A model generated the notes under the pieces. That model was not told the origin of the DNA and did no database searches. It saw nothing but the letters and a program-made list of their open reading frames with translations. Below are positions 4,591-37,578 of a stretch of 37,578 bases of DNA, in pieces. Every line of letters begins with the position of its first letter. Position 1 is the first letter of the stretch. The stretch is from a virus: positions 1-37,578 of IMG/VR virus record IMGVR_UViG_3300037521_000128, one strand, 5' to 3'. The position numbers and the translations under genes are program-made.

Positions 4591-4646
4591 GTAAACAACT
4601 AATCATACCTTTACTTGAATGGCTGCTCTTTAGACCAAGCTATTGA
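4587..4646 (+). other. 19-codon frame coupled by ATGA, possibly the broken 5' end of the next gene
   Basis: The ATG at 4587 overlaps the preceding stop and encodes MSKQLIIPLLEWLLFRPSY before TGA. The long frame of the sigma-like gene is open in another frame from 4615, so this could be the original start separated by a frameshift, or just a coupling peptide. Confidence 0.3.
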
Positions 4647-4677
4647 AGCGGTAGGAAATAGGATCAGGAACAACAGG

Positions 4678-5466
4678 ATGTCGAAGAGAAAAAATAAGTT
4701 TAAAGAGACTGTCTTGATGGCTTGGAAGTTAAGAAAGAATCTCAAAACGATGACATATCTGGAGTTAGACCCAGAAATGATGACAGAAGAGACACCTCGA
4801 GACATCATAGATGACAAATGGCGACGAGAAGCTATCTTGGAAGCTGTCTCTACTCTGAACGAAAGGGAAAGGTCAGTCATCATTAGCAGGTATATTGACG
4901 ATGAGACCCTGAAAGTGAACGCTGAAAGATTGAGTCTGTGCACAGAAAGAATAAGGCAGATAGAGGCGAAAGCCTTGAGGAAGCTTAGGCTTCCTATTCG
5001 ATCCAAGCAACTTGCGCCTTATCTTGATGACATGGAAGCGCGACTTCATAAAAGGGAACAGGAACGAAAAAAGTCAGAGGAGAGGAGCAAGCGCCAGTCT
5101 CTTAGTTGGATGATGGGAAGTAGAACTCGTGAAGCAAGGAAACGTCTAGCTCTTGCAACTGCTCGAGAAGAGGAAAGAAAGGAAGCGTTAGACAGGAAAG
5201 AAAAGAGAGACAGGTTCCAAGTAGAGTGGGAGATTGAGCACAAAGAGAAGTATGACTTCTACAATGAGGTGCAAACTATGATTAGTAATGTCGATAGACT
5301 GAAGGATATCACTCTTAAGCCAAGACTCTTTGTAGGAAAATGCAAATGCCGAGACTGGCACGCAGAGTACAGGCTTTTATGTGAAGAGTTTGAAATAGGG
5401 TGCATGAAATGTCTTACTGTATTTGATATGGAAGTAAAGGAGAAGGATGAAGAGATTGAGCGGTAA
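4678..5466 (+). CDS. Sigma-70 region-4-like protein with C-terminal cysteine knuckle
   Basis: From the ATG at 4678 (AGGA upstream) the protein has 262 residues; the frame is open from 4615 but offers only a TTG there without a ribosome site. A sigma-region-4-like segment is clear: LNERERSVIISRYIDDETL followed by ERIRQIEAKALRKLRL, the helix-turn-helix signature of sigma-70 factors. Regions 2 and 3 are absent. A long charged coiled coil follows, then CKC...C..GCMKC, a probable zinc knuckle. Phage proteins of this type can act as late-gene regulators. Whether it binds RNA polymerase is unknown. Confidence 0.7.
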   Translation: MSKRKNKFKETVLMAWKLRKNLKTMTYLELDPEMMTEETPRDIIDDKWRREAILEAVSTLNERERSVIISRYIDDETLKVNAERLSLCTERIRQIEAKALRKLRLPIRSKQLAPYLDDMEARLHKREQERKKSEERSKRQSLSWMMGSRTREARKRLALATAREEERKEALDRKEKRDRFQVEWEIEHKEKYDFYNEVQTMISNVDRLKDITLKPRLFVGKCKCRDWHAEYRLLCEEFEIGCMKCLTVFDMEVKEKDEEIER

Positions 5467-6287: not shown

Positions 6288-6572
6288 ATGACAAAGGAGT
6301 TCAGTGGAACAATAGAAAAGATGTTCCACTGTGACTGGCCTAATTTTGTCTTACTGAAGGATAGGTTTTGGTTAGTCGCGAGTTCTTTTGAGAGAGTTGA
6401 CCACTTAGGGTTTGACAAATTCCTAGAGTTTCACCTTACTCAGAATGTGAGTTGTCAATTTCTTAAGAAAAAGTATGGAAATGACAAGTTCATAAACAAT
6501 ATTTCTCTAATGAGACATTGTTTATCTATAAACCAAGAATACATTGTGTTAATACAACCATTCGGGAGTTAA
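6288..6572 (+). CDS. Hypothetical protein (94 aa)
   Basis: It starts at the ATG at 6288, preceded by AAGGAGATATT, one of the best ribosome sites of the early block. The protein is rich in aromatic and hydrophobic residues (FVLLKDRFWLVASSF) and appears to be a soluble alpha/beta domain without a membrane span. Its position after the SSB-like gene suggests DNA metabolism, but no family is recognised. Confidence 0.6.
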   Translation: MTKEFSGTIEKMFHCDWPNFVLLKDRFWLVASSFERVDHLGFDKFLEFHLTQNVSCQFLKKKYGNDKFINNISLMRHCLSINQEYIVLIQPFGS

Positions 6573-6866
6573 ATGAATAAATGTTGCGAGCTTCAAGTAG
6601 TGCATAAAGATAATGTCAAGCTAAAATTAATCATTGAAGAGAGAGAGGTTGATCGCTTCTTTACTGATCTTATGAGGGGAGAGGTTTATCACTATCCCAA
6701 ATCTTCAAAACCTAAAGGTGTTGGGATTTGGATTAATCTTGCAGAGATTAGGTATATCACAGTTTGGGAGGTAGAAGGTGACTCAGGAAAAAACGCGAGT
6801 ATTGAGAGCATTGAGTCAATACGAGCTAGAAATGGAGTTCCTCCGTCAGGAGAGGGACCTTCTTGA
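6573..6866 (+). CDS. Hypothetical protein (97 aa)
   Basis: The ATG at 6573 directly abuts the previous stop. N-terminal strands (CCELQVVHKDNVKLKLIIEE) precede an acidic helix and a WINLAEIRYITVWEVE strand pair, a layout seen in small phage DNA-metabolism proteins. The last 88 bases overlap the next gene in another frame, so the low-complexity C-terminus may be under dual constraint. Confidence 0.55.
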   Translation: MNKCCELQVVHKDNVKLKLIIEEREVDRFFTDLMRGEVYHYPKSSKPKGVGIWINLAEIRYITVWEVEGDSGKNASIESIESIRARNGVPPSGEGPS

Positions 6867-16112: not shown

Positions 16113-16760
16113 ATGGCGTGGGATAAATCTCTCCCCAATAATGGAACGAAAATCAGGAATTATCCTACTGTTTTGACTTCCAACTTCGCTGCCGTAGAAG
16201 AAGGTGGCACAACACTTCAATTCTGGAAGCAAAACTTTATTGAAAGGAATGCCATTCCATCGGCTCCTGCTGTAGACCCCGCTCGAATTGACGATGTGAT
16301 GCAGGTTTATTCTAAGCAAAACGCTGATGGAGAAACCGATCTCTATGTCACTGATGACAGAGCAATCGCCAATGTCATCGAGCTGACAGAGAATGGAAAA
16401 GTTGGTGGAAGAGCGCAGTCGTTTGTCATGCAAGACGTGTCATTTGGAACCAAGACAGACCTCTATACTGAAGACAATATGGTCACAGCTTGGGCTTACG
16501 TCAATAGTGCAGGAGCTCTTCAAGACGGAACAGGATTAACCTCAGTTAAAAATTCAACAGGAAAATATACCATTTCATTTAGCACTTCAGCTTCTAATGC
16601 AACCTATGGGGTCTTACTCACTTCTTTACACACCCCTGGAAACCCACGAGTTGGTCACTACAATACACTAACAGTTAATGATTTCGATGTTGCTTTTGTC
16701 AATGCAAGTGGAACACACACCAATACTGATTTCACCGTTATGGTAATAGGGGGGAGATAG
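16113..16760 (+). CDS. Virion tail-region protein (215 aa)
   Basis: A GGAG site and the ATG at 16113. The N-terminus (LPNNGTKIRNYPTVLTSNFAAVEEG) matches short leader domains by which small tail proteins attach to the virion. The C-terminal half is an Ala/Ser/Thr-rich beta sandwich (TGKYTISFSTSASNATYGVLLTSL). Translationally coupled to the next gene, whose GTG overlaps its stop. Role beyond virion location is not recognised. Confidence 0.6.
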   Translation: MAWDKSLPNNGTKIRNYPTVLTSNFAAVEEGGTTLQFWKQNFIERNAIPSAPAVDPARIDDVMQVYSKQNADGETDLYVTDDRAIANVIELTENGKVGGRAQSFVMQDVSFGTKTDLYTEDNMVTAWAYVNSAGALQDGTGLTSVKNSTGKYTISFSTSASNATYGVLLTSLHTPGNPRVGHYNTLTVNDFDVAFVNASGTHTNTDFTVMVIGGR

Positions 16761-19156
16761 TGGGTTACCAGCCATTCATTATAGCGCCATTTCATACAGG
16801 ACTTGATACGGACCAAGAGCCGTGGCTTCTTCCTGTGGATGCGTTTAAAAATATATTGAATGGTCATATTCATCATGGATATGTTGAAAAGCGTAAGGGT
16901 TTTCGATTTTTAGCGGAGATGATTCATGCAAGAACAATCACAGCGGCGACAGCAGTCAATCCCTCGGTATTTACTGCTGCTTCTGCCACTGGTCTTTCTA
17001 ATGATGATAGTGTCACGTTGCAGTACCTCGCCGGAGGTAGCTGGCCCAACCTCAATGGAGCCAAGTACACAATCTCCAGCCTTGCAGGTTCGACCTTTCA
17101 ACTTGTTGATTCTACAGGAACGACAGTCAATGGTTCTGGATTAGGGACTTATGATGCAAGCACAGGAAGACTAGGAACTTTTGACGCTCTAAGAATCATG
17201 GGAATCTTTAGGTACATTGGTTCAGATAACACTCGTCAGACTCTCATAGCAGATACCGAGAGAGTGGGCATTTATAACAGTGCAACCAACCTGATCGACC
17301 CACTAGATTTATACGATATTACTGTGACTCTACAGCCCGATAGCGATGTTTTTGCTTCCACAAACTCTGACTTTATCTGGGCAGCAAATTGGCAACATGC
17401 TGGAGCTGTAAATCGGGTTTACTTTACCAATGGCAAAGCCTATGCATCAGGAACTCCAGGAACGGATGGAATCCTCTTCTACGACGCTCAAAACGCTCGA
17501 GTAGAGCAATTTCAACCTGCTCTTAACTCTTCAGACGATCTCTATGGCTGCAAGATGATGTTTAGTATCAAGCAGAGACTCCTTTGTCTTCATACCTTTG
17601 AATTTAACGGATCTACCACCAACACCTTCCCTCAGAGAGCACGTTGGTGTGCAGCTCAAGACCCCTCAAATTGGAATGATACAATAGCTGGGGGAGGAGG
17701 TTTTGTAGACGCTCCAACAGGACAACAGATCATAAGTGCTACGGAGTTACAAGATGTTATCATTGTGCATTTTACAGACAGCGTGTGGACTTTACGTTCA
17801 GTTCCAGACCCAGCATTGCCATTTCGTTGGGACAAAATTAATGATTTCCGTGCATGCGACGGAAAGATGGCCACTATCGGATTTGATAGATATTCTGTGG
17901 CTGTCGGAGTTAGAGGGATTACCGCAACTGATGGAGTAGAAACGCGTCGTGTTGATGAGAGGATTGAAGATTTCGTTAATAACGATATCAATGACAGTGA
18001 GTTTGATAAGGTTTTTGCTGAAAGAAGCTATGCAACAAGAAGAAGTTGGATTCTTTATCCATCCGAGGAGAGTGAGGATTCTAATGCTGTACTCATATAC
18101 GATGATGAAAGTGGAGCTTATAGCAAATATGAAATCGATCTCAATGCTCTTGGTTACGGCTCTGTTGCAAAAGATTTTGCTGCTCAAGATTTCATCGCTG
18201 CGAATAGTCTAGATATTTCTTCTGGAGAAATGACAGATGAGACAGCTTTAAGTTACTTCTGGTCTGACACAGCAGAGATATTTCTTGGAGGAGATTCAAC
18301 AGGTAAGGTTTACACTTTAGAGACGGAGACTACAGATGATGGTACTATTATTCCCTTTTCTCTCACTAGTGCTGGGTGGAATCCTTTTAAGGATCAGAGT
18401 TCAGAAGCTCAATTCGGATACATAGATTTTTTTCTAGAGAGTGATCAGCAGACTAAACTCAACATTTCTTTTTATAAGAATAACAATGAAAATAGTTATG
18501 TATCGCAGAGGTTAGACCTTCTCCCTAATCTAACTTTTTTAGCATCTATTTCCAACATTGTCATCAATTCTGACCCTACTTCAGGATTTACAGTCACTGC
18601 AAACTCTCATGGATTGTCAGTTGGACAGGAATTCTACATCTATGGAGTAGAGGGAGCAGGGTTCTTTAATGATGAACTTTGGACAGTGGGAGCAACAGTC
18701 ACAGAGAACAACTTCACTGTAGATACTGACATTACTTCTTTGGGAAATGTCATCACTGGAATTTCTCAAGCGACTACAGCAGTAGTAACAGCAACAGCTC
18801 ACGATTTATCAGACGGAGATGTGATCACTATCGTTGATGTGTCAGGCATGGTTGAAGTTAATGGCTTTACATTTACCGTAGCTGAATCAACTGCTGACAC
18901 CTTCGAGCTTTCCGGTGTCGATTCCACTGGATTTACAGGTTATACAAGTGGTGGATATGTCTTTAAAAAGTATCTAAGTGGTGGGCAAATCACAGAGAGG
19001 AAGTTCTTTAGAACTAAGGTATGGAAACGGGCATACGCCGGTGGGATTGGGTATGAGCATCAGATTGTCATCACCAGTGAAGGAAAGAATCAACCCTTCA
19101 AGATTCACTCTATGAAGCCTTGGTTTCGGGCTAGAGGAAGGAGGGTACTCGGATGA
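16760..19156 (+). CDS. Large tail (nozzle/tubular-type) protein with FCCH-like modules
   Basis: A 798-residue protein beginning at the GTG at 16760 (shares the G of the TAG stop; GGGGGAG upstream). The N-terminus (FIIAPFHTGLDTDQEPWLLPVDAFKN) and body (WAANWQHAGAVNRVYFTNG, RCMMF-like GCKMMFSIKQRLLCLH, FTDSVWTLRSV) follow the beta-propeller-like tail nozzle proteins of podoviruses (P22 gp10-type). FCCH-like modules are inserted at about residues 56-130 and twice at about 590-735. It likely forms the tail hub or tube below the connector. Confidence 0.65.
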   Translation: MGYQPFIIAPFHTGLDTDQEPWLLPVDAFKNILNGHIHHGYVEKRKGFRFLAEMIHARTITAATAVNPSVFTAASATGLSNDDSVTLQYLAGGSWPNLNGAKYTISSLAGSTFQLVDSTGTTVNGSGLGTYDASTGRLGTFDALRIMGIFRYIGSDNTRQTLIADTERVGIYNSATNLIDPLDLYDITVTLQPDSDVFASTNSDFIWAANWQHAGAVNRVYFTNGKAYASGTPGTDGILFYDAQNARVEQFQPALNSSDDLYGCKMMFSIKQRLLCLHTFEFNGSTTNTFPQRARWCAAQDPSNWNDTIAGGGGFVDAPTGQQIISATELQDVIIVHFTDSVWTLRSVPDPALPFRWDKINDFRACDGKMATIGFDRYSVAVGVRGITATDGVETRRVDERIEDFVNNDINDSEFDKVFAERSYATRRSWILYPSEESEDSNAVLIYDDESGAYSKYEIDLNALGYGSVAKDFAAQDFIAANSLDISSGEMTDETALSYFWSDTAEIFLGGDSTGKVYTLETETTDDGTIIPFSLTSAGWNPFKDQSSEAQFGYIDFFLESDQQTKLNISFYKNNNENSYVSQRLDLLPNLTFLASISNIVINSDPTSGFTVTANSHGLSVGQEFYIYGVEGAGFFNDELWTVGATVTENNFTVDTDITSLGNVITGISQATTAVVTATAHDLSDGDVITIVDVSGMVEVNGFTFTVAESTADTFELSGVDSTGFTGYTSGGYVFKKYLSGGQITERKFFRTKVWKRAYAGGIGYEHQIVITSEGKNQPFKIHSMKPWFRARGRRVLG

Positions 19157-22017: not shown

Positions 22018-24498
22018 ATGCCATTCGTAATTACACAACAACAAGATGAAGAACAACAAGGTGATGAAAAACAAGACCCACAAGCACAAGATGGATTTGT
22101 TATTGCTCCTAGAGAAGAAGTAGAAGATACTGGATTCGACTTTTTAAAAGATATTGTTGGTCCTGCTAAAGAATTTGGAGTAGGGACTCTTAATCTTGCT
22201 TCTATGGCATTTGGTGGTGGTCCAGATAGCATAATGTCTAAGCATGAGGAATGGCGTAAGAATGAGCCTAGTTTTACACATGATATTGAATCAGCTCTCT
22301 TGAGAAATCAAGGGTTATCTGATGAAGAGATCACAAAGAAAATAGGAGAACGTCCTGTTGAGAAAAAAACACTTACTCTTTCTGAGGGAATTGATGAACT
22401 GACAGGTGGAGCACTGGTTCCTGTCACAGCGCGTCAGAGAATGACTCAAAAAGCAGCAAGAGAAGCTGGAGAATTTGCAGCTACAGAAGCTATTTTCCCT
22501 GGTTCTACCGGAGCCAAATCATTGGCAAAATGGGCTGGAGTTGGCGGTCTGTTTGGATTAGGAGAGCAAATAGCCGAAGAGTCAGGTGGTGGTGAAGGTG
22601 CAAAATTAGGTACGGGAGCAGGATTAGCATCATTAGTAGCACTTCCTTTTTTAGCAAAAAAGGGTTTTTCTGGATTAAAAAATGCCTACCAATTTGGGAG
22701 GGGCTTACTCAAAAGTAAGACTTTAGCTGAAAGCACTCCTAGATTTTTGACAGAAGCAAAAACTCCAAAAGCCTTAGCTGATTTAAAGTTAAGTGCTAAA
22801 GATTTGACTGGTCGAGTTGCAAAAACAAGCGAAGAAATGTTGAATACATTCGACAAGTCGTTATCAAACGTTGCAGAACCAAGTTTTAAAGACGTGGGTA
22901 CATTCCGAGCAGCTAATATTGAGGCTGATATCTTAAAACAAAACCAAAAAGCAATTTTGGATACTATCAGTCCTGCTGCTGAAACACAAAAAAAATCATG
23001 GGAAAGCTTACAAAATGTTGTTGAAGAGAATTTTAAAGCTGTCCGAGAAAGTTATCGTGAACTATATAAACAATCTGAACAAATTGCTTCAAAAATAAAG
23101 ATTTTTCCAAAAAACACCTATGATGCTGCAAGAGAATTAAGAAAAGAGATGCACGGCAGTCTCTTGTCAATGGCAGAAGAAGGAGTCATAAAGAGTGCTG
23201 CTGAAAAGTTGTCACAGAAACTGGCTCCTTCACATAAAAAAATGGCTAAAATATTATTCGAAGATTTAAAAAAAGAAGGATTTTTTTCTGATGTTAAAGA
23301 AGTTGCGAGTGCTTTAAAAAAATTAGGAGAAAAGCCCGTACCTCCAGAGATATCTATTGATAAATTAATGAAGACAAAAAGAGGTATCAATAGAATCCTT
23401 TCTAAGTCGGATATTATACCTGCACCAGTTGATCTTCTAAAATCAATTTCTAGAGAATTGAAAATCGACATACTTAAAGGTCTAGAGGCTTCTCCAAAAG
23501 CTAGAGAAATGTATGTGGGAGCAGAAGGTCTTTTTGCGAAAACACAGAATACTTTCAACAATGATGTCATGGTTAAAATGCGTAAAAGTCCTAATCCAGA
23601 AGATTTGACACCTTTATTTACCAAACCAAGCAATACGCAGAGGCTAAATAATGCTATAGGTAACGAACCTAAGATGAAAGATCTTATTGATAGGTTGATT
23701 GTTGAAAATATAGCATCCAAACCAAAAGCAGTTGCACAAGAATTAGCACGAGAAAGTCGTGAGTTCTTAAGTAAAAAATCCCAACGTGCATTGGATAGCC
23801 TTTTAGAATATGGTGATACGTTAACTTCTAAAGGTCAACAATCTGTATCTCGAGGAAATGTATTACAAGACTTACAAAAATCATTTGAAACTGGTAGTAG
23901 ACCAGATTACACTCTAAAATTAATGCAAAATGAAACTGGTTATGGACTCGTCAAAAACACTCTAAATCGCTCTCCTAAAGGAAAGAAGATGTGGAAGTCT
24001 CTTCAACGTCAGACTTTTGAAGATATGATTGCTTCTGTCCTTGATAAAGACAAGGTTATAGATTTCGAGAAAGCTAGAGATATCTTCTCTGATAAGCATT
24101 TACAAAGTGTTGTCAAAGAAGCAATGGGACCAGAGGGAGTCAACTTCTTCAATCAGCTTCAGAATTATGGTCAGAATATGGCTCAAAACATCAAAAATCT
24201 AGCATCTAAAGACAAAGGGATGTTTGAGAGATTTGCAGAGTCCTATTTGCCAAAGGGTATTAAATATTCATTGTACGCGATGGTGGGTCCTACGCATGGA
24301 TTAAGTTTATTACCTTTTTTTGGAAAAGAGGTAGCAAGAAGAGCTTATAGAAATCAGCTTTATAAAATTCTTGAAAATCCTAAGAGTCGTAGTTTGATTA
24401 AAGAAATGGGGAAGAAAAGTGTCTCTCCAGAGAAGATGAAGTCTTTACTTAAGCAGATAGGAAGGCTTGGTAGTGAAGAATACGAGAAAGAAGAATAG
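22018..24498 (+). CDS. Large internal virion/ejection protein (826 aa)
   Basis: The longest protein of the genome, nine bases after its neighbour. Acidic Gln-rich start, then a Gly/Ala-rich hydrophobic region (residues ~150-215, with LGTGAGLASLVALPFLA) that could be membrane-interacting, then long charged helices to the end. This pattern is usual for podovirus ejection proteins that carry DNA through the cell envelope. The gene is noticeably more AT-rich than its neighbours. No transglycosylase or lysozyme motif was found. Assignment is by position and composition. Confidence 0.6.
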   Translation: MPFVITQQQDEEQQGDEKQDPQAQDGFVIAPREEVEDTGFDFLKDIVGPAKEFGVGTLNLASMAFGGGPDSIMSKHEEWRKNEPSFTHDIESALLRNQGLSDEEITKKIGERPVEKKTLTLSEGIDELTGGALVPVTARQRMTQKAAREAGEFAATEAIFPGSTGAKSLAKWAGVGGLFGLGEQIAEESGGGEGAKLGTGAGLASLVALPFLAKKGFSGLKNAYQFGRGLLKSKTLAESTPRFLTEAKTPKALADLKLSAKDLTGRVAKTSEEMLNTFDKSLSNVAEPSFKDVGTFRAANIEADILKQNQKAILDTISPAAETQKKSWESLQNVVEENFKAVRESYRELYKQSEQIASKIKIFPKNTYDAARELRKEMHGSLLSMAEEGVIKSAAEKLSQKLAPSHKKMAKILFEDLKKEGFFSDVKEVASALKKLGEKPVPPEISIDKLMKTKRGINRILSKSDIIPAPVDLLKSISRELKIDILKGLEASPKAREMYVGAEGLFAKTQNTFNNDVMVKMRKSPNPEDLTPLFTKPSNTQRLNNAIGNEPKMKDLIDRLIVENIASKPKAVAQELARESREFLSKKSQRALDSLLEYGDTLTSKGQQSVSRGNVLQDLQKSFETGSRPDYTLKLMQNETGYGLVKNTLNRSPKGKKMWKSLQRQTFEDMIASVLDKDKVIDFEKARDIFSDKHLQSVVKEAMGPEGVNFFNQLQNYGQNMAQNIKNLASKDKGMFERFAESYLPKGIKYSLYAMVGPTHGLSLLPFFGKEVARRAYRNQLYKILENPKSRSLIKEMGKKSVSPEKMKSLLKQIGRLGSEEYEKEE

Positions 24499-24576: not shown

Positions 24577-24717
24577 TTACTTATTAAATTTTTGAGTGTA
24601 ATAAAGAAGCGATTGCATCACCAATTTAGAGATAGTCATGTTGCGTTTAAGAGCTTCCTCTTTGATTCTTTGGTGCTCTTCTTCAGAGATTTCGATGACA
24701 AGACGCTTGTTTTTCAT
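24577..24717 (-). CDS. Ribbon-helix-helix (Arc/CopG-type) repressor
   Basis: A 46-residue protein on the minus strand, too short for standard length cut-offs. The start (ATG at 24717) reads MKNKRLVIEISEEEHQRIKE and continues EALKRNMTISKLVMQSLL before a short YYTQ tail: a strand, a helix, a turn with NMTISKLV and a second helix, the RHH fold. RHH proteins bind DNA as dimers with paired strands in the major groove. A perfect palindrome abuts the start codon, so self-repression is likely. It is the only minus-strand gene among late plus-strand genes and is possibly a regulator of the fibre operon. Confidence 0.85.
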   Translation of the reverse strand: MKNKRLVIEISEEEHQRIKEEALKRNMTISKLVMQSLLYYTQKFNK

Positions 24718-24718
24718 A

Positions 24719-24732
24719 TGTACAAATGTACA
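24719..24732. promoter_or_regulatory. Palindromic operator between RHH gene and fibre operon
   Basis: TGTACA-AA-TGTACA, a perfect dyad, ends one base before the RHH start codon. On the minus strand a TTGCAA box (24748-24753) lies 18 bases before TACATT, which falls in the palindrome, giving a plausible promoter whose transcript would start at or near the ATG (leaderless). A bound RHH dimer would block it. No separate ribosome site precedes the RHH start. Confidence 0.6.
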
Positions 24733-24817
24733 ACAAAGATATATTTACTTGCAAGAAAAAAATAATTTATTTACAAGGAAAATCAACTCGCAGAACCACA
24801 GTTAAGAGGAGTTATCA

Positions 24818-27157
24818 ATGGCTAAACGAAGAAGAGTTTACGGAATATCCACACCTTTTGAAGATGTTTTTCCTATTCCAATTTCATCCACAAGCGTACC
24901 AACCAGTTCAGATATAGGATTTGAGGTTGGGCAAGTATGGATTAACACATCAGCAGACACAGCTTATTTTTTAACAAGTGTTGTTGCTGGTTCAGCTACA
25001 TGGGCTTTAGCTAGTCCAGGAGCGTCAGATGTAGACACCTTAACAGGTGACAGCGGTGGAGCAATTTCTCCAGGAGCTGGAAATATTACACTTGCAGGTG
25101 GCACAAATATCACCTCGGTAGGTGGTGGTTCAACAATTACTTTTAACTTAGATGCAGCCATCACACTTGCTACTTCTATCACTTCAGCTCTCTATACGAC
25201 AGCAGCAGCTACTGATTTGTTGATTACAGCAGTATCGGGACAAGACGTTATCATTAAGATGGGTGACGCAGGAGGAACTAATAAAGTTTCTTTTACAGAT
25301 ACTGGAGATGCCGAAGTAGCTTCCATTGACTCAGATGGTGCTTTTACAACCACAGGTTTAACGTTCACAGGATTGCTAACAGCAAACGCCAGTGCAACGA
25401 TTTTAACAGCAGGAACAGCTTTAAACTTGGGTTCAGACAACAACTCAGCAGCTGTAAATCTTGGTGTAGGAACAACAGCACGAGCTATTGGAATTGGTGA
25501 TTCAGCAGCAGCGCACACCATCACAATCGGTAGTGTAACAGGAGCAGCTTCTTTAGACCTTTTGGCCGGAACAGGAGACTTTTCCATAGACGGAGCAGCT
25601 ACTACAGATATGCTAGTAGGAGCATCCTTAACCAGTGGTATTATCACCATCGGTGGAACTGCTCAAACAGGCACAATGACCCTTGGAGATTCTTCTGGAA
25701 CAAATATTGTTCAGATTGGTTCTGGAGAAGGCGCGACCACAGTGAATATCGCTGGCGGTGCAACGGCTGCCAAGGCAGTAAACATAGCCGTAGGTGCTGT
25801 AGCTAATGTAGTTATAATAGGTAGTACCTCTGGAGCAGCCTCAATGGCACTTAAGGTTGGTACAGGTAACTACAACTTAGACGGTGCAGCAACTTCAACT
25901 TACACAGTCGCAGCAGCTACTACTTCAGGAACAATCACCATTGGTGGTACAGCTCAGACAGGTACATTCTCTATCGGTGATACTTCAGGAACAATGATTC
26001 TTGAGCTAGGTGCTGGTGAAGGTGCAACGACTGTTGCAATCGCTGGTGGAGCAACGAATCCTAAAGCAGTCGATATTGCTATCGGTGCAGTGGCTAATGT
26101 AGTTACGATCGGTACTGTTTCTGGTGCTGCATCCATGGACCTTAAGGTTGGTACAGGTAACTTTACCTTAGAAGGTAATGTAGCCTCAACTTACGACATA
26201 AGCTCTACTGGAGCCAACACTGGAACAGCTAAATTTGCTTCTGGTACTGGTGCTAGAACAGTTGAGATTGCAGGTGGTGGAACTGGCGTTAAGACTGTGA
26301 ACATTGCAGCCGCTGCAACGGCAGATGTGGTAACCATAGGTACGACTACTGGAGCTGGTAGCACAACTATTGCGGCAGGAACTGGCGATATTACTCTTAG
26401 CGGAACCGTTAAAGAGGTTAACTCTGAGTTTGCCTACTCAACAGGAACAGATCTACAGGTACAACAATCTCCAGTAATGACAACAGCCGCCACAACTGGT
26501 GGAGCTGCAACAGGAGCCACTGGTGATGTAAACTTAATGTCCTTGCAAGATGGTTGCTTGATGGAGCAGTTCATCTTAGGTGCTGGTCAGACTATCATTG
26601 CTCCTCGAATGGATGCGACAGCAGGGCTAAGTATTGGACTTGACCTTGTTGATAACGAAGGTGCTGAATACAACTTTGGTGCAAGAGCAAATGCCAAGCA
26701 CGTTTTCACAATTGGAACGTCAGCAGCATTTTTCCTAGAAGCCCAACTTTATGCAGCCGATCTATCAGGACTTGAACCTCTATGGCTTGGTTTCCGTAAA
26801 GTAGAAGCTAACAATGCAACATGGGACTCTTATACAGATTTCTATGGAATCGGCATGAATAACGCTACTTCAGCGACAAATATTTCTTTGACAAGTCAGT
26901 TGAATACTGGAGGTGTAACACTTCAAACCAGTGGAACAGCTTGGACAGGTGGAGATGGTGGTACAGTAACACTTATCATACTAGTTTCAGCTTCAGGAGT
27001 AGTAACAGCAACTATTGATGGTGGAGCTCCATCCTCACCTCTAGCCTACACGTTCGATAACACAGACACAATAATGCCCTGTATACATTTCTTACATGAT
27101 ACAACTACACCTGGTGTCATTGGACTTAAATCACTTAAGTGTGGATTCCAGGCTTAA
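24818..27157 (+). CDS. Repeat-rich tail fibre/adhesin protein (779 aa)
   Basis: A protein dominated by Gly, Thr, Ala and short beta strands with many ITIG/VNIAGG turns, read as a beta-helix or beta-solenoid shaft. A 97-residue repeat occurs at residues 274-370 and 371-467, with a partial third to about 535. The last ~200 residues are non-repetitive and end with a conserved-looking strand set (IMPCIHFLHDTTTPGVIGLKS), probably the receptor or tip part. GAGGAG lies eight bases before the ATG. It probably contacts the host surface. Confidence 0.7.
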   Translation: MAKRRRVYGISTPFEDVFPIPISSTSVPTSSDIGFEVGQVWINTSADTAYFLTSVVAGSATWALASPGASDVDTLTGDSGGAISPGAGNITLAGGTNITSVGGGSTITFNLDAAITLATSITSALYTTAAATDLLITAVSGQDVIIKMGDAGGTNKVSFTDTGDAEVASIDSDGAFTTTGLTFTGLLTANASATILTAGTALNLGSDNNSAAVNLGVGTTARAIGIGDSAAAHTITIGSVTGAASLDLLAGTGDFSIDGAATTDMLVGASLTSGIITIGGTAQTGTMTLGDSSGTNIVQIGSGEGATTVNIAGGATAAKAVNIAVGAVANVVIIGSTSGAASMALKVGTGNYNLDGAATSTYTVAAATTSGTITIGGTAQTGTFSIGDTSGTMILELGAGEGATTVAIAGGATNPKAVDIAIGAVANVVTIGTVSGAASMDLKVGTGNFTLEGNVASTYDISSTGANTGTAKFASGTGARTVEIAGGGTGVKTVNIAAAATADVVTIGTTTGAGSTTIAAGTGDITLSGTVKEVNSEFAYSTGTDLQVQQSPVMTTAATTGGAATGATGDVNLMSLQDGCLMEQFILGAGQTIIAPRMDATAGLSIGLDLVDNEGAEYNFGARANAKHVFTIGTSAAFFLEAQLYAADLSGLEPLWLGFRKVEANNATWDSYTDFYGIGMNNATSATNISLTSQLNTGGVTLQTSGTAWTGGDGGTVTLIILVSASGVVTATIDGGAPSSPLAYTFDNTDTIMPCIHFLHDTTTPGVIGLKSLKCGFQA
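25637..26218 (+). repeat. Two 291-bp tandem repeats in the fibre gene
   Basis: Units at 25637-25927 and 25928-26218 encode the 97-residue repeat. Shared stretches include ACTTAAGGTTGGTACAGGTA-like segments near each unit end and GGTGxAACxGxx turns, so DNA as well as protein is conserved. In-frame unit gain or loss would change shaft length. Confidence 0.7.
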
Positions 27158-35549: not shown

Positions 35550-35728
35550 TTTAATCCCCCAACACTAATATTGCGCAAAGAATTACCATTAATATTACTT
35601 CTATCATCTTGTTTCTCCGTTTCTAAAGTCCATGAGCACTCCTCACAAATGCAAGAGCAATCATCTGAGGGGTTCTCTCTAGCCTCTGATTTATCATAAA
35701 AATTTCCGCAGTTATCGCATTCAAACAT
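35546..35728 (-). CDS. Small zinc-binding protein (60 aa)
   Basis: The ATG at 35728 is preceded by AAGGAGAACCACA; an in-frame extension upstream is not needed. Cysteines CDNC near residue 4 and CSCICEEC near 26-33 form two zinc-knuckle-type pairs. It is coupled to recT. It uses the same 19-base start region as the upstream gene. Function unknown. Confidence 0.65.
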   Translation of the reverse strand: MFECDNCGNFYDKSEARENPSDDCSCICEECSWTLETEKQDDRSNINGNSLRNISVGGLK

Positions 35729-36050
35729 TGTGGTTCTCCTTGAGCGTGCGCCCATTGTTCATGTTCTGATCCATCGTGGCTCTTTGGTAATCTATGTACC
35801 ATTCCATAAGATCGTTTGACTTACGTATCTTTGGTTTGTCATCCTTCGTAGGAAGCAATTTACAGTCTAAGATGGCGCAAAGTTCTTCTAGTTGATATTC
35901 AAGTTTACCTACATCTCCCGTCTGATAAACACATTCTTGTATTCCTACAAGAAATTCTCTAGCTGACTCAATGTCAGGTAGGTCGTCTTCGTGTATGTAA
36001 CCGTTGTCTAAAGCATGGTTACAGTCGTCATAATCGGAAAAGCTAAACAT
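35721..36050 (-). CDS. First gene of the leftward operon (109 aa)
   Basis: Acidic, helical protein (SDYDDCNHALDNGYIHEDDL, then LEYQLEELCAILDCKLL) with a basic end (NNGRTLKENHNV) that overlaps the next start. The AAGGAGAACCACA ribosome site and a clear promoter precede it, so it is probably one of the first phage products made. No family is recognised; a host-takeover protein is one guess from position alone. Confidence 0.6.
   Translation of the reverse strand: MFSFSDYDDCNHALDNGYIHEDDLPDIESAREFLVGIQECVYQTGDVGKLEYQLEELCAILDCKLLPTKDDKPKIRKSNDLMEWYIDYQRATMDQNMNNGRTLKENHNV
35723..35741 (-). repeat. 19-base translation-start repeat, copy 1
   Basis: AAACATTGTGGTTCTCCTT (plus strand) covers ribosome site, spacer and start codon of the 35546 zinc gene and is identical to 36045-36063. 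Confidence 0.85.
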
Positions 36051-36114: not shown

Positions 36115-36144
36115 AATATATCACGATGCATTGTAATACGTCAA
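36115..36144 (-). promoter_or_regulatory. Strong leftward sigma-70 promoter
   Basis: On the minus strand TTGACG, 18 bases, then TATATT. Transcription would begin near 36107 inside the operator and feed the operon beginning at 36050. The overlapping plus strand shows an exact TATAAT at 36112-36117, a possible rightward promoter for the repressor, but with no good -35. Confidence 0.75.
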
Positions 36145-36221
36145 CAAGAAAAATAAATCTCGCAAAAAAAGAAACTTCTCATATATATTCCTGCTTTGAT
36201 GATCATAAAAAGGAGAATCCA

Positions 36222-36446
36222 ATGGATTTAGATGAATACTGCTGGAGAAAACGAATTACACTTATAGAAATTTCTAAAAAAACAGGGATATGTGCACCAA
36301 CGTTGAGTCATCTTAAAAATTTGAAAGTTACCCCAAATCTAATGACAGCATTAAAGTTGTATGAATTTAGTAAGGGGGAAATTAGCTATGTGGAAATGTT
36401 ACCCGAAAAAGTTCGTGTTGAATTTGAGAAATGGATATGCGAATAA
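36222..36446 (+). CDS. Cro/YdaS-like repressor
   Basis: A 74-residue protein from the ATG at 36222 with AAGGAGAATCC upstream; the frame back to 36126 lies in promoter DNA. An XRE-type HTH is visible: LDEYCWRKRITLIEISKKTG, then CAPTLSHLKNLKVTPN. It is expressed divergently from the leftward operon and faces the operator, so it is probably the regulator of the early switch. No partner repressor or integrase is present. Confidence 0.75.
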   Translation: MDLDEYCWRKRITLIEISKKTGICAPTLSHLKNLKVTPNLMTALKLYEFSKGEISYVEMLPEKVRVEFEKWICE

Positions 36447-37177: not shown

Positions 37178-37578
37178 AGAAAAAAAAGACTCGTATATCC
37201 AGGATAAATCCTCCCTTCACGATTTTCGAACCGAGATTCCGAATATCGTTTTTAGCTTAGGACTCGATCCTTACGAAAAAGCGCTCTACTTAGAATACAA
37301 AAGAGTAGCAGGAGACAAGGGAGCATGTTGGAAAAGCAATAAAAGCCTAGCGGAAGCGGTAGGGTGCTCCATCCGCAAAATTCAAAGCACTAAGAAAAAG
37401 CTGTGTAAAAAAAGATCCAAGTTGAACGGGAAGTCTCTCATCACAGTTGTACAGAGAAAGAGAGAAGACAAGGGAGACGCAAGCGACATAATAACTATTA
37501 TGGATATCTGGGAAAACAACGCGATGGAATTCATCGCAAGTCGCCGTAAAAAAGAGGCTCCAAAAAGAGCTACCCCCC
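37170..37578 (+). CDS. Replication initiator, 5' part (continues at 128-738)
   Basis: The true start ATG at 37170 has AAGGAAC upstream and overlaps the preceding gene. The N-terminal domain (SLGLDPYEKALYLEYKRVA, then CWKSNKSLAEAVGCSIRKIQ) is a winged-helix replication-initiator domain, with GCSIRKIQSTKKKL as the recognition helix. The frame passes through 37500 (internal ATG) and, after the 127-base overlap, continues to the stop at 738, giving 339 residues. Confidence 0.85.
   Translation, partial: MFEEKKDSYIQDKSSLHDFRTEIPNIVFSLGLDPYEKALYLEYKRVAGDKGACWKSNKSLAEAVGCSIRKIQSTKKKLCKKRSKLNGKSLITVVQRKREDKGDASDIITIMDIWENNAMEFIASRRKKEAPKRATP
37452..37578. repeat. 127-base direct terminal overlap with 1-127
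   Basis: Bases 37452-37578 equal bases 1-127 exactly. The sequence therefore represents a circle of 37,451 bp. The overlap ends in a C-tract at the origin repeats. A length of 127 is a standard maximum k-mer size in short-read assembly, so it is best read as a closing artefact, although true terminal redundancy is not excluded. Confidence 0.95.

Follow-up and report, generated by a model that had tools for sequence, protein, structure and literature searches.

The stretch of DNA analysed here (hereafter the window) comprises the 37,578 bp of an IMG/VR virus record and encodes a P22-type portal, recognised with Pfam, together with RecE/RecT-like recombination and DnaD/O-like replication genes. 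Since positions 1-127 recur exactly at 37452-37578, this 127-bp terminal repeat makes it probable that the window is a complete genome that closes into a circle, with a closed length of 37,451 bp. A small gene for a ribbon-helix-helix (RHH) protein was found on the minus strand between the genes for an 826-aa virion-type protein and a divergent 779-aa fibre-like protein (Table 1). The former may be considered gp16-like by position only, and hhalign detected no homology between it and P22 gp16; the latter had no match in Pfam or PHROG, and a search for both proteins in 84,980 genomes revealed no host or prophage relatives. Upstream of the late genes, the window also carries a protein with a sigma-70 region 4 (4615-5466, plus strand; PF04545, 1e-12), a possible phage late sigma factor.

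Table 1. Features of the RHH locus in the window and at the corresponding position in related contigs (presumed promoters given as -35 box, spacer, -10 box and distance to the start codon).
Contig	Feature	Position	Strand	Sequence or size	Remark
Window	Virion-type protein	22018-24498	+	826 aa	Last gene before the RHH gene; homologues in L002 and L006
Window	RHH protein, autorepressor candidate	24577-24717	-	46 aa	Profiles, AlphaFold model, Foldseek, synonymous bias
Window	Inverted repeat, presumed operator	24719-24732		TGTACA-AA-TGTACA (TGTACAAATGTACA)	Recurs in relatives
Window	Presumed -10 box	24725-24730	-	TACATT	Inside the operator, 7 nt from ATG
Window	Presumed -35 box	24749-24754	-	TTGCAA	Spacer 18
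Window	Fibre-like protein	24818-27157	+	779 aa	Divergent from the RHH gene; strong Shine-Dalgarno, AAGAGGAG
Window	RHH promoter			TTGCAA-18-TACATT-7-ATG	Weak, 8/12
L005	RHH promoter			TTGCAA-17-TATAAT-7-ATG	Perfect TATAAT, at least 8/12
L012	RHH promoter			TTGAAG-17-TATAAT-7-ATG	Perfect TATAAT, at least 8/12
L019	RHH promoter			TGGAAG-17-TATCAT-6-ATG	At least 8/12
L007	RHH promoter			TTGCAT-17-TAGCAT-6-ATG	Score 7
Window	Inverted repeat			TGTACATTTGTACA	Ends at -2
L005	Inverted repeat			TGTATATAATTATATACA	18 bp, perfect; overlaps A of the RHH ATG
L019	Inverted repeat			ATATCATTGTGATAT	Overlaps the RHH ATG
L012	Inverted repeats			TGTAT...ATACA and ATGTAATACAT	
L003/L004	Inverted repeat			GGTAAACATTTACC	15 bp upstream of the RHH start
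L007	Inverted repeat			CTAG-CATT-CTAG only	Weak
L009	Leftward genes			66 and 74 aa	One hydrophobic segment each; shared KDFHxRLCxIEERR end
L012	Leftward genes			71 and 56 aa	Hydrophobic
L010	Leftward genes			113 and 41 aa	HTH-like (113 aa); hydrophobic (41 aa)
L014	Leftward gene			108 aa	Glycine-rich
L019	Leftward gene			134 aa	DUF7448
L003, L004	Leftward genes			Small ORFs	N-terminal hydrophobic segments
L016	Leftward slot, no RHH				Zinc-ribbon and membrane peptide
L020	Leftward slot, no RHH				Ribosomal protein uS15-like and membrane peptide
L021	Leftward slot, no RHH				Membrane proteins

The translation of the minus-strand ORF is MKNKRLVIEISEEEHQRIKEEALKRNMTISKLVMQSLLYYTQKFNK, and no in-frame ATG, GTG or TTG was found upstream of its start. 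The first-pass annotation had described it as a 46-residue RHH protein encoded against the late genes and had asked for a sensitive profile search, and both the profiles and the structural comparisons bore this out. As a single sequence, it matched the Pfam families ParD (2e-5) and NikA-like (7e-5), both just under the curated cut-offs, and the Arc-like repressor of PHROGs (0.02), and the profile of the ten-member locus family recovered ORF omega, ParG, Arc, ORF56, NikA, AvtR, ParD and CopG from the PDB. The protein has the beta-strand and two helices, the length of about 45 aa and the profile match by which RHH proteins are recognised; its AlphaFold (AF2) model (pLDDT 93), built as a monomer and with no strand formally assigned, shows an extended N-terminus and then two helices. 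Foldseek placed CopG, ParG, ORF56 and AtaR near the top (probability 0.98-0.99, TM to query 0.7-0.9), with probabilities of 0.8-0.99 to CopG, ParG and Arc, the shortness of the chain keeping its E-values weak. In addition, substitutions between relatives (dN 0.07 and dS 0.31 for L003/L004; pN 0.29 and pS 0.82 for window/L005) indicate that the frame is under protein selection.

Queries with the fibre protein and the 826-aa protein encoded before it retrieved the relatives of the locus. A minus-strand RHH gene lay directly upstream of the fibre homologue in 10 of the 16 contigs examined, namely the window and nine others (L003, L004, L005, L007, L009, L010, L012, L014, and L019), whose RHH proteins are 20-54% identical to that of the window. 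The alignment of these proteins recruited only four contigs from 2.9 million viral contigs, all of them within the same locus set, and among phage isolates the best E-value was about 1. The RHH gene tracks the fibre even beside an unrelated upstream virion gene (L005, L009, and L012 versus L002 and L006). Among the contigs that have no RHH gene, L016, L020, and L021 carry other small leftward genes, whereas L002, L006, and L008 have no insert, only a short gap of 34-84 bp from the upstream virion gene to the fibre.

The presumed operator was exactly where the first-pass annotation had placed it, separated from the RHH ATG by base 24718 alone. The 6-bp arms match perfectly around an AA that is not self-complementary, and each TGTACA forms a palindrome on its own. 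Sought with 0 or 1 mismatch, TGTACAnnTGTACA had this one site in the window and no other copy; up to 3 mismatches gave 21 sites, a chance level, and TGTACA occurs 5 times in total. Taken alone, the window palindrome is not improbable, as 6% of the 212 other start codons taken from these phages do equally well and shuffles of the same 44 nt gave p = 0.14; its weight comes from recurrence. The summed inverted-repeat score of nine independent RHH starts exceeded that of the 212 background starts (p = 0.0003; 0.0016 without the window), a modest excess of about 2.3 sd when measured against composition-matched shuffles of these short, AT-rich start regions. The conservation that had been asked for thus held for the frame and its position in related phages, but for the palindrome in only about half of the RHH contigs, where inverted repeats of differing sequence lie at the start, as in L005, L012, and L019, or near it; no clear one was found at the RHH start of L009, L010, or L014. 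No structured RNA with a z-score below -1 was detected at the junction. The smallness of the ORF and the probability of the palindrome alone (about 0.06-0.14) might suggest a chance ORF beside a chance palindrome, with no gene at all; the relatives, however, share the RHH profile, its place and strand, and the pattern of change by codon position, and the RHH model is confident. This leaves the idea next to no probability, and conservation already refutes it.

A -10-like TACATT had been noted within the palindrome, together with the idea of a self-repressed, perhaps leaderless regulator. The box is indeed there, with TTGCAA 18 nt upstream of it, and the palindrome covers it. A Shine-Dalgarno-like motif was found at 29 of the 44 window starts checked and was absent from the RHH start. 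Four of the nine independent RHH loci showed a sigma-70-like -10 box 6-7 nt from the ATG and no ribosome site; the window, L005, L012, and L019 reached a leaderless promoter score of at least 8/12, as compared with 2 of the 212 background starts, so that the leaderless reading is supported by comparison. This geometry is a stronger signal than the inverted repeats, and RHH genes that have it would lack a leader, their -10 box lying within the inverted repeat or overlapping it; in the window, a leaderless RHH mRNA is probable. The RHH genes of L003/L004 and L009 have ribosome sites and look like ordinary leadered genes.

Analysis of the downstream side revealed a leftward series headed by the RHH gene in L003, L004, L009, L010, L012, L014, and L019, seven of the nine relatives that have it; in the window, L005, and L007, the RHH gene stands alone. 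The genes following it were small, mostly with a predicted hydrophobic segment, and the first membrane gene of L009 had its own 11/12 promoter. A recognisable toxin gene adjoined the RHH gene in none of the relatives, which argues against an orphan antitoxin of the ParD/CopG type that would neutralise a host toxin or repress a host toxin-antitoxin operon. We regard that function as very unlikely: ParD was the best single-protein Pfam match (2e-5) and some family members also match HicB, CopG_antitoxin, and TacA1, but the matches of the window protein lie under the curated cut-offs, and its 46 aa comprise the DNA-binding domain only, without a C-terminal toxin-binding tail.

Several genes in the same slot deserve mention in their own right. 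One-span membrane proteins ending in KDFHxRLCxIEERR, found as two tandem copies in L009 (6272-6698, minus strand) and once in L021 (6590-6811, minus strand), are candidates for superinfection exclusion. L020 has in this slot, after the virion gene and before the fibre, a homologue of ribosomal protein uS15 (6397-6660, minus strand; PF00312, 3e-13, above the cut-off); uS15 encoded by viruses is already on record (PMC6375957). Finally, L003 (3998-4564) and L004 (3994-4560) encode on the plus strand a serine recombinase of the resolvase/invertase type between the virion genes and the fibre. Inversion of the fibre by this enzyme was considered and rejected, as no strong inverted repeats surround the fibre.

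The possibility raised by the first-pass annotation that the repressor also controls the divergent fibre genes was not upheld, as the window has one operator only and no sigma-70-like match on the plus strand in 24718-24817. A repressor dedicated to the fibre likewise found no backing, since the RHH gene heads its own leftward cassette in most relatives and the fibre directly follows the upstream gene in the three insert-free ones, an arrangement that simple co-transcription fits. We therefore consider it unlikely that the RHH protein, from its site at 24719-24732, sets the dose or timing of the fibre, be it by repressing a divergent fibre promoter or by blocking a late RNA polymerase that reads from the 826-aa gene into the fibre; the operator lies over the RHH promoter, with some 86 bp between it and the fibre ATG. 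On the other side, the RHH gene is always next to the fibre and divergent from it, whatever the upstream virion gene, and promoters of the sigma-region-4 protein would be invisible to a sigma-70 scan. The fibre of L003/L004 is split from the virion operon by the recombinase and leftward genes, so it probably has its own promoter there, and the corresponding region of P22 is thought to affect the tailspike level via read-through (PMC2629481). Any RHH effect on the fibre level would be secondary, by analogy with that suggestion. Quite doubtful, in our view, is the broader proposal that uncultivated P22-portal phages use rapidly diverging RHH/operator pairs with leaderless promoters to set fibre expression at this junction, by divergent promoter control or a roadblock, and perhaps also to repress competing relatives at their fibre or exclusion cassette; if true, the dose of a receptor-binding gene would be a regulated trait.

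An ACCACA(T) element was observed shortly upstream of the fibre start (24795-24800, plus strand), and AACCACA/ACCACAT precedes the fibre in the window, L003, L004, L005, L010, and L014. It is a possible promoter or 5' leader element; these 7-mers occur 6 times on the plus and 2 times on the minus strand of the window, near expectation.

The claim that a repressor at this site would be unusual was overstated, as P22 keeps its RHH repressors Mnt and Arc at the equivalent position. Of the P22 genes between gene 16 and the tailspike gene 9, sieA, orf59a, and mnt point leftward, whereas arc and ant point rightward. Operators overlie the mnt and arc promoters, and sieA has a promoter of its own, like the first membrane gene of L009. 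Villafane et al. (2008) named the region the "ant moron" and distinguished ten types in sixteen P22-like genomes, some consisting only of mnt and one other gene (PMC2629481). The contigs without an RHH gene, having other small genes or no insert, show the kind of variability known among ant morons (PMC2629481, PMC8022706). The locus shares with P22 immI the slot between the last ejection-type gene and the fibre or tailspike, the leftward RHH repressor with a presumed operator on its own promoter, and a variable insert that includes small membrane genes in relatives and is absent from some of them; fibre adjacency and the P22-type portal were seen too. In contrast, the window has no ant, arc, sar, or sieA, forming a short, probably leaderless unit, its upstream gene is not detectably gp16, and no rightward gene lies between the RHH gene and the fibre in the window or its RHH-bearing relatives. 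Comparison with Mnt and Arc revealed nothing beyond the RHH pattern (profile 2-3 bits, hhalign probability 4-13%). Since position, RHH content, variability, and membrane neighbours match P22 and sequence does not, the locus, as far as its sequence tells, is a positional and mechanistic analogue of Mnt/Arc and not a member of that family.

Close in organisation are the solitary mnt-like morons of L/ST64T, ST104, and Para1, in which an RHH repressor occupies the same slot without an antirepressor and with no more than one further gene (PMC2629481, PMC8022706). Those are Mnt homologues of Salmonella phages, whereas here a 46-aa CopG/ParG-like RHH protein lies beside unrelated fibres of uncultivated phages. 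With CopG, ORF56, ParG, and Arc it shares fold, size, and presumed autoregulation via an inverted repeat over the -10 region; the operator sequence and host element differ, and there is no copy-control or partition context.

Taken together, the observed RHH family and fold, the synteny in ten contigs, and the recurring palindromes and leaderless geometry favour, with a probability of roughly two-thirds, a self-contained regulatory moron that reads leftward, represses itself, and is placed between the last ejection-type gene and the fibre of a P22-portal-type phage. Its host-type promoter TTGCAA-18-TACATT would start the mRNA at or beside the RHH ATG; the 46-aa protein would dimerise into an RHH fold and bind TGTACA-AA-TGTACA, occupying the -10 box together with the start point; RNA polymerase would thereby be blocked and the promoter shut off by its own product. 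We infer DNA binding, autorepression, and cassette function, autorepression being the best supported. The small, mostly hydrophobic leftward genes in seven of nine relatives make it probable that the ancestral role was to regulate an accessory cassette of lysogenic-conversion or superinfection-exclusion type; in the window, the cassette would have been lost, leaving only the regulator. Of the features of a moron, promoter-like geometry and absence of the insert from L002, L006, and L008 were seen, and no terminator was found in the window. Against this reading stand the clear palindrome at only about half of the RHH starts, the weak window promoter, the leadered look of the L003/L004 and L009 genes, and the negative comparisons with Mnt, Arc, and gp16. 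Such a moron also presupposes lysogeny, yet the complete window genome has no tyrosine integrase, and among the contigs examined only L014 has one.

The arrangement of Mnt and Arc beside the tailspike is itself known, and what is new is this variant of it. It points to the P22 immI position as a hot spot for morons far beyond the P22 group of Salmonella and E. coli, and to RHH repressors not recognisable as Mnt or Arc as its commonest occupant in these environmental phages. The naturally diverged RHH/operator pairs on leaderless promoters would be useful for studying repressor-operator co-evolution, and the small membrane proteins of the leftward cassettes form a list worth testing for superinfection exclusion.

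Elsewhere in the window, a weak phage-repressor-like gene (36126-36446, plus strand), divergent from 35721-36050, has its ATG 8 nt after a TATAAT and is possibly another leaderless regulator. In addition, a structural protein (16760-19156, plus strand) matches the FCCH domain of ubiquitin-activating enzyme E1 with 51 bits (cut-off 29.5), a match that overlaps a PHROG tail-protein match.
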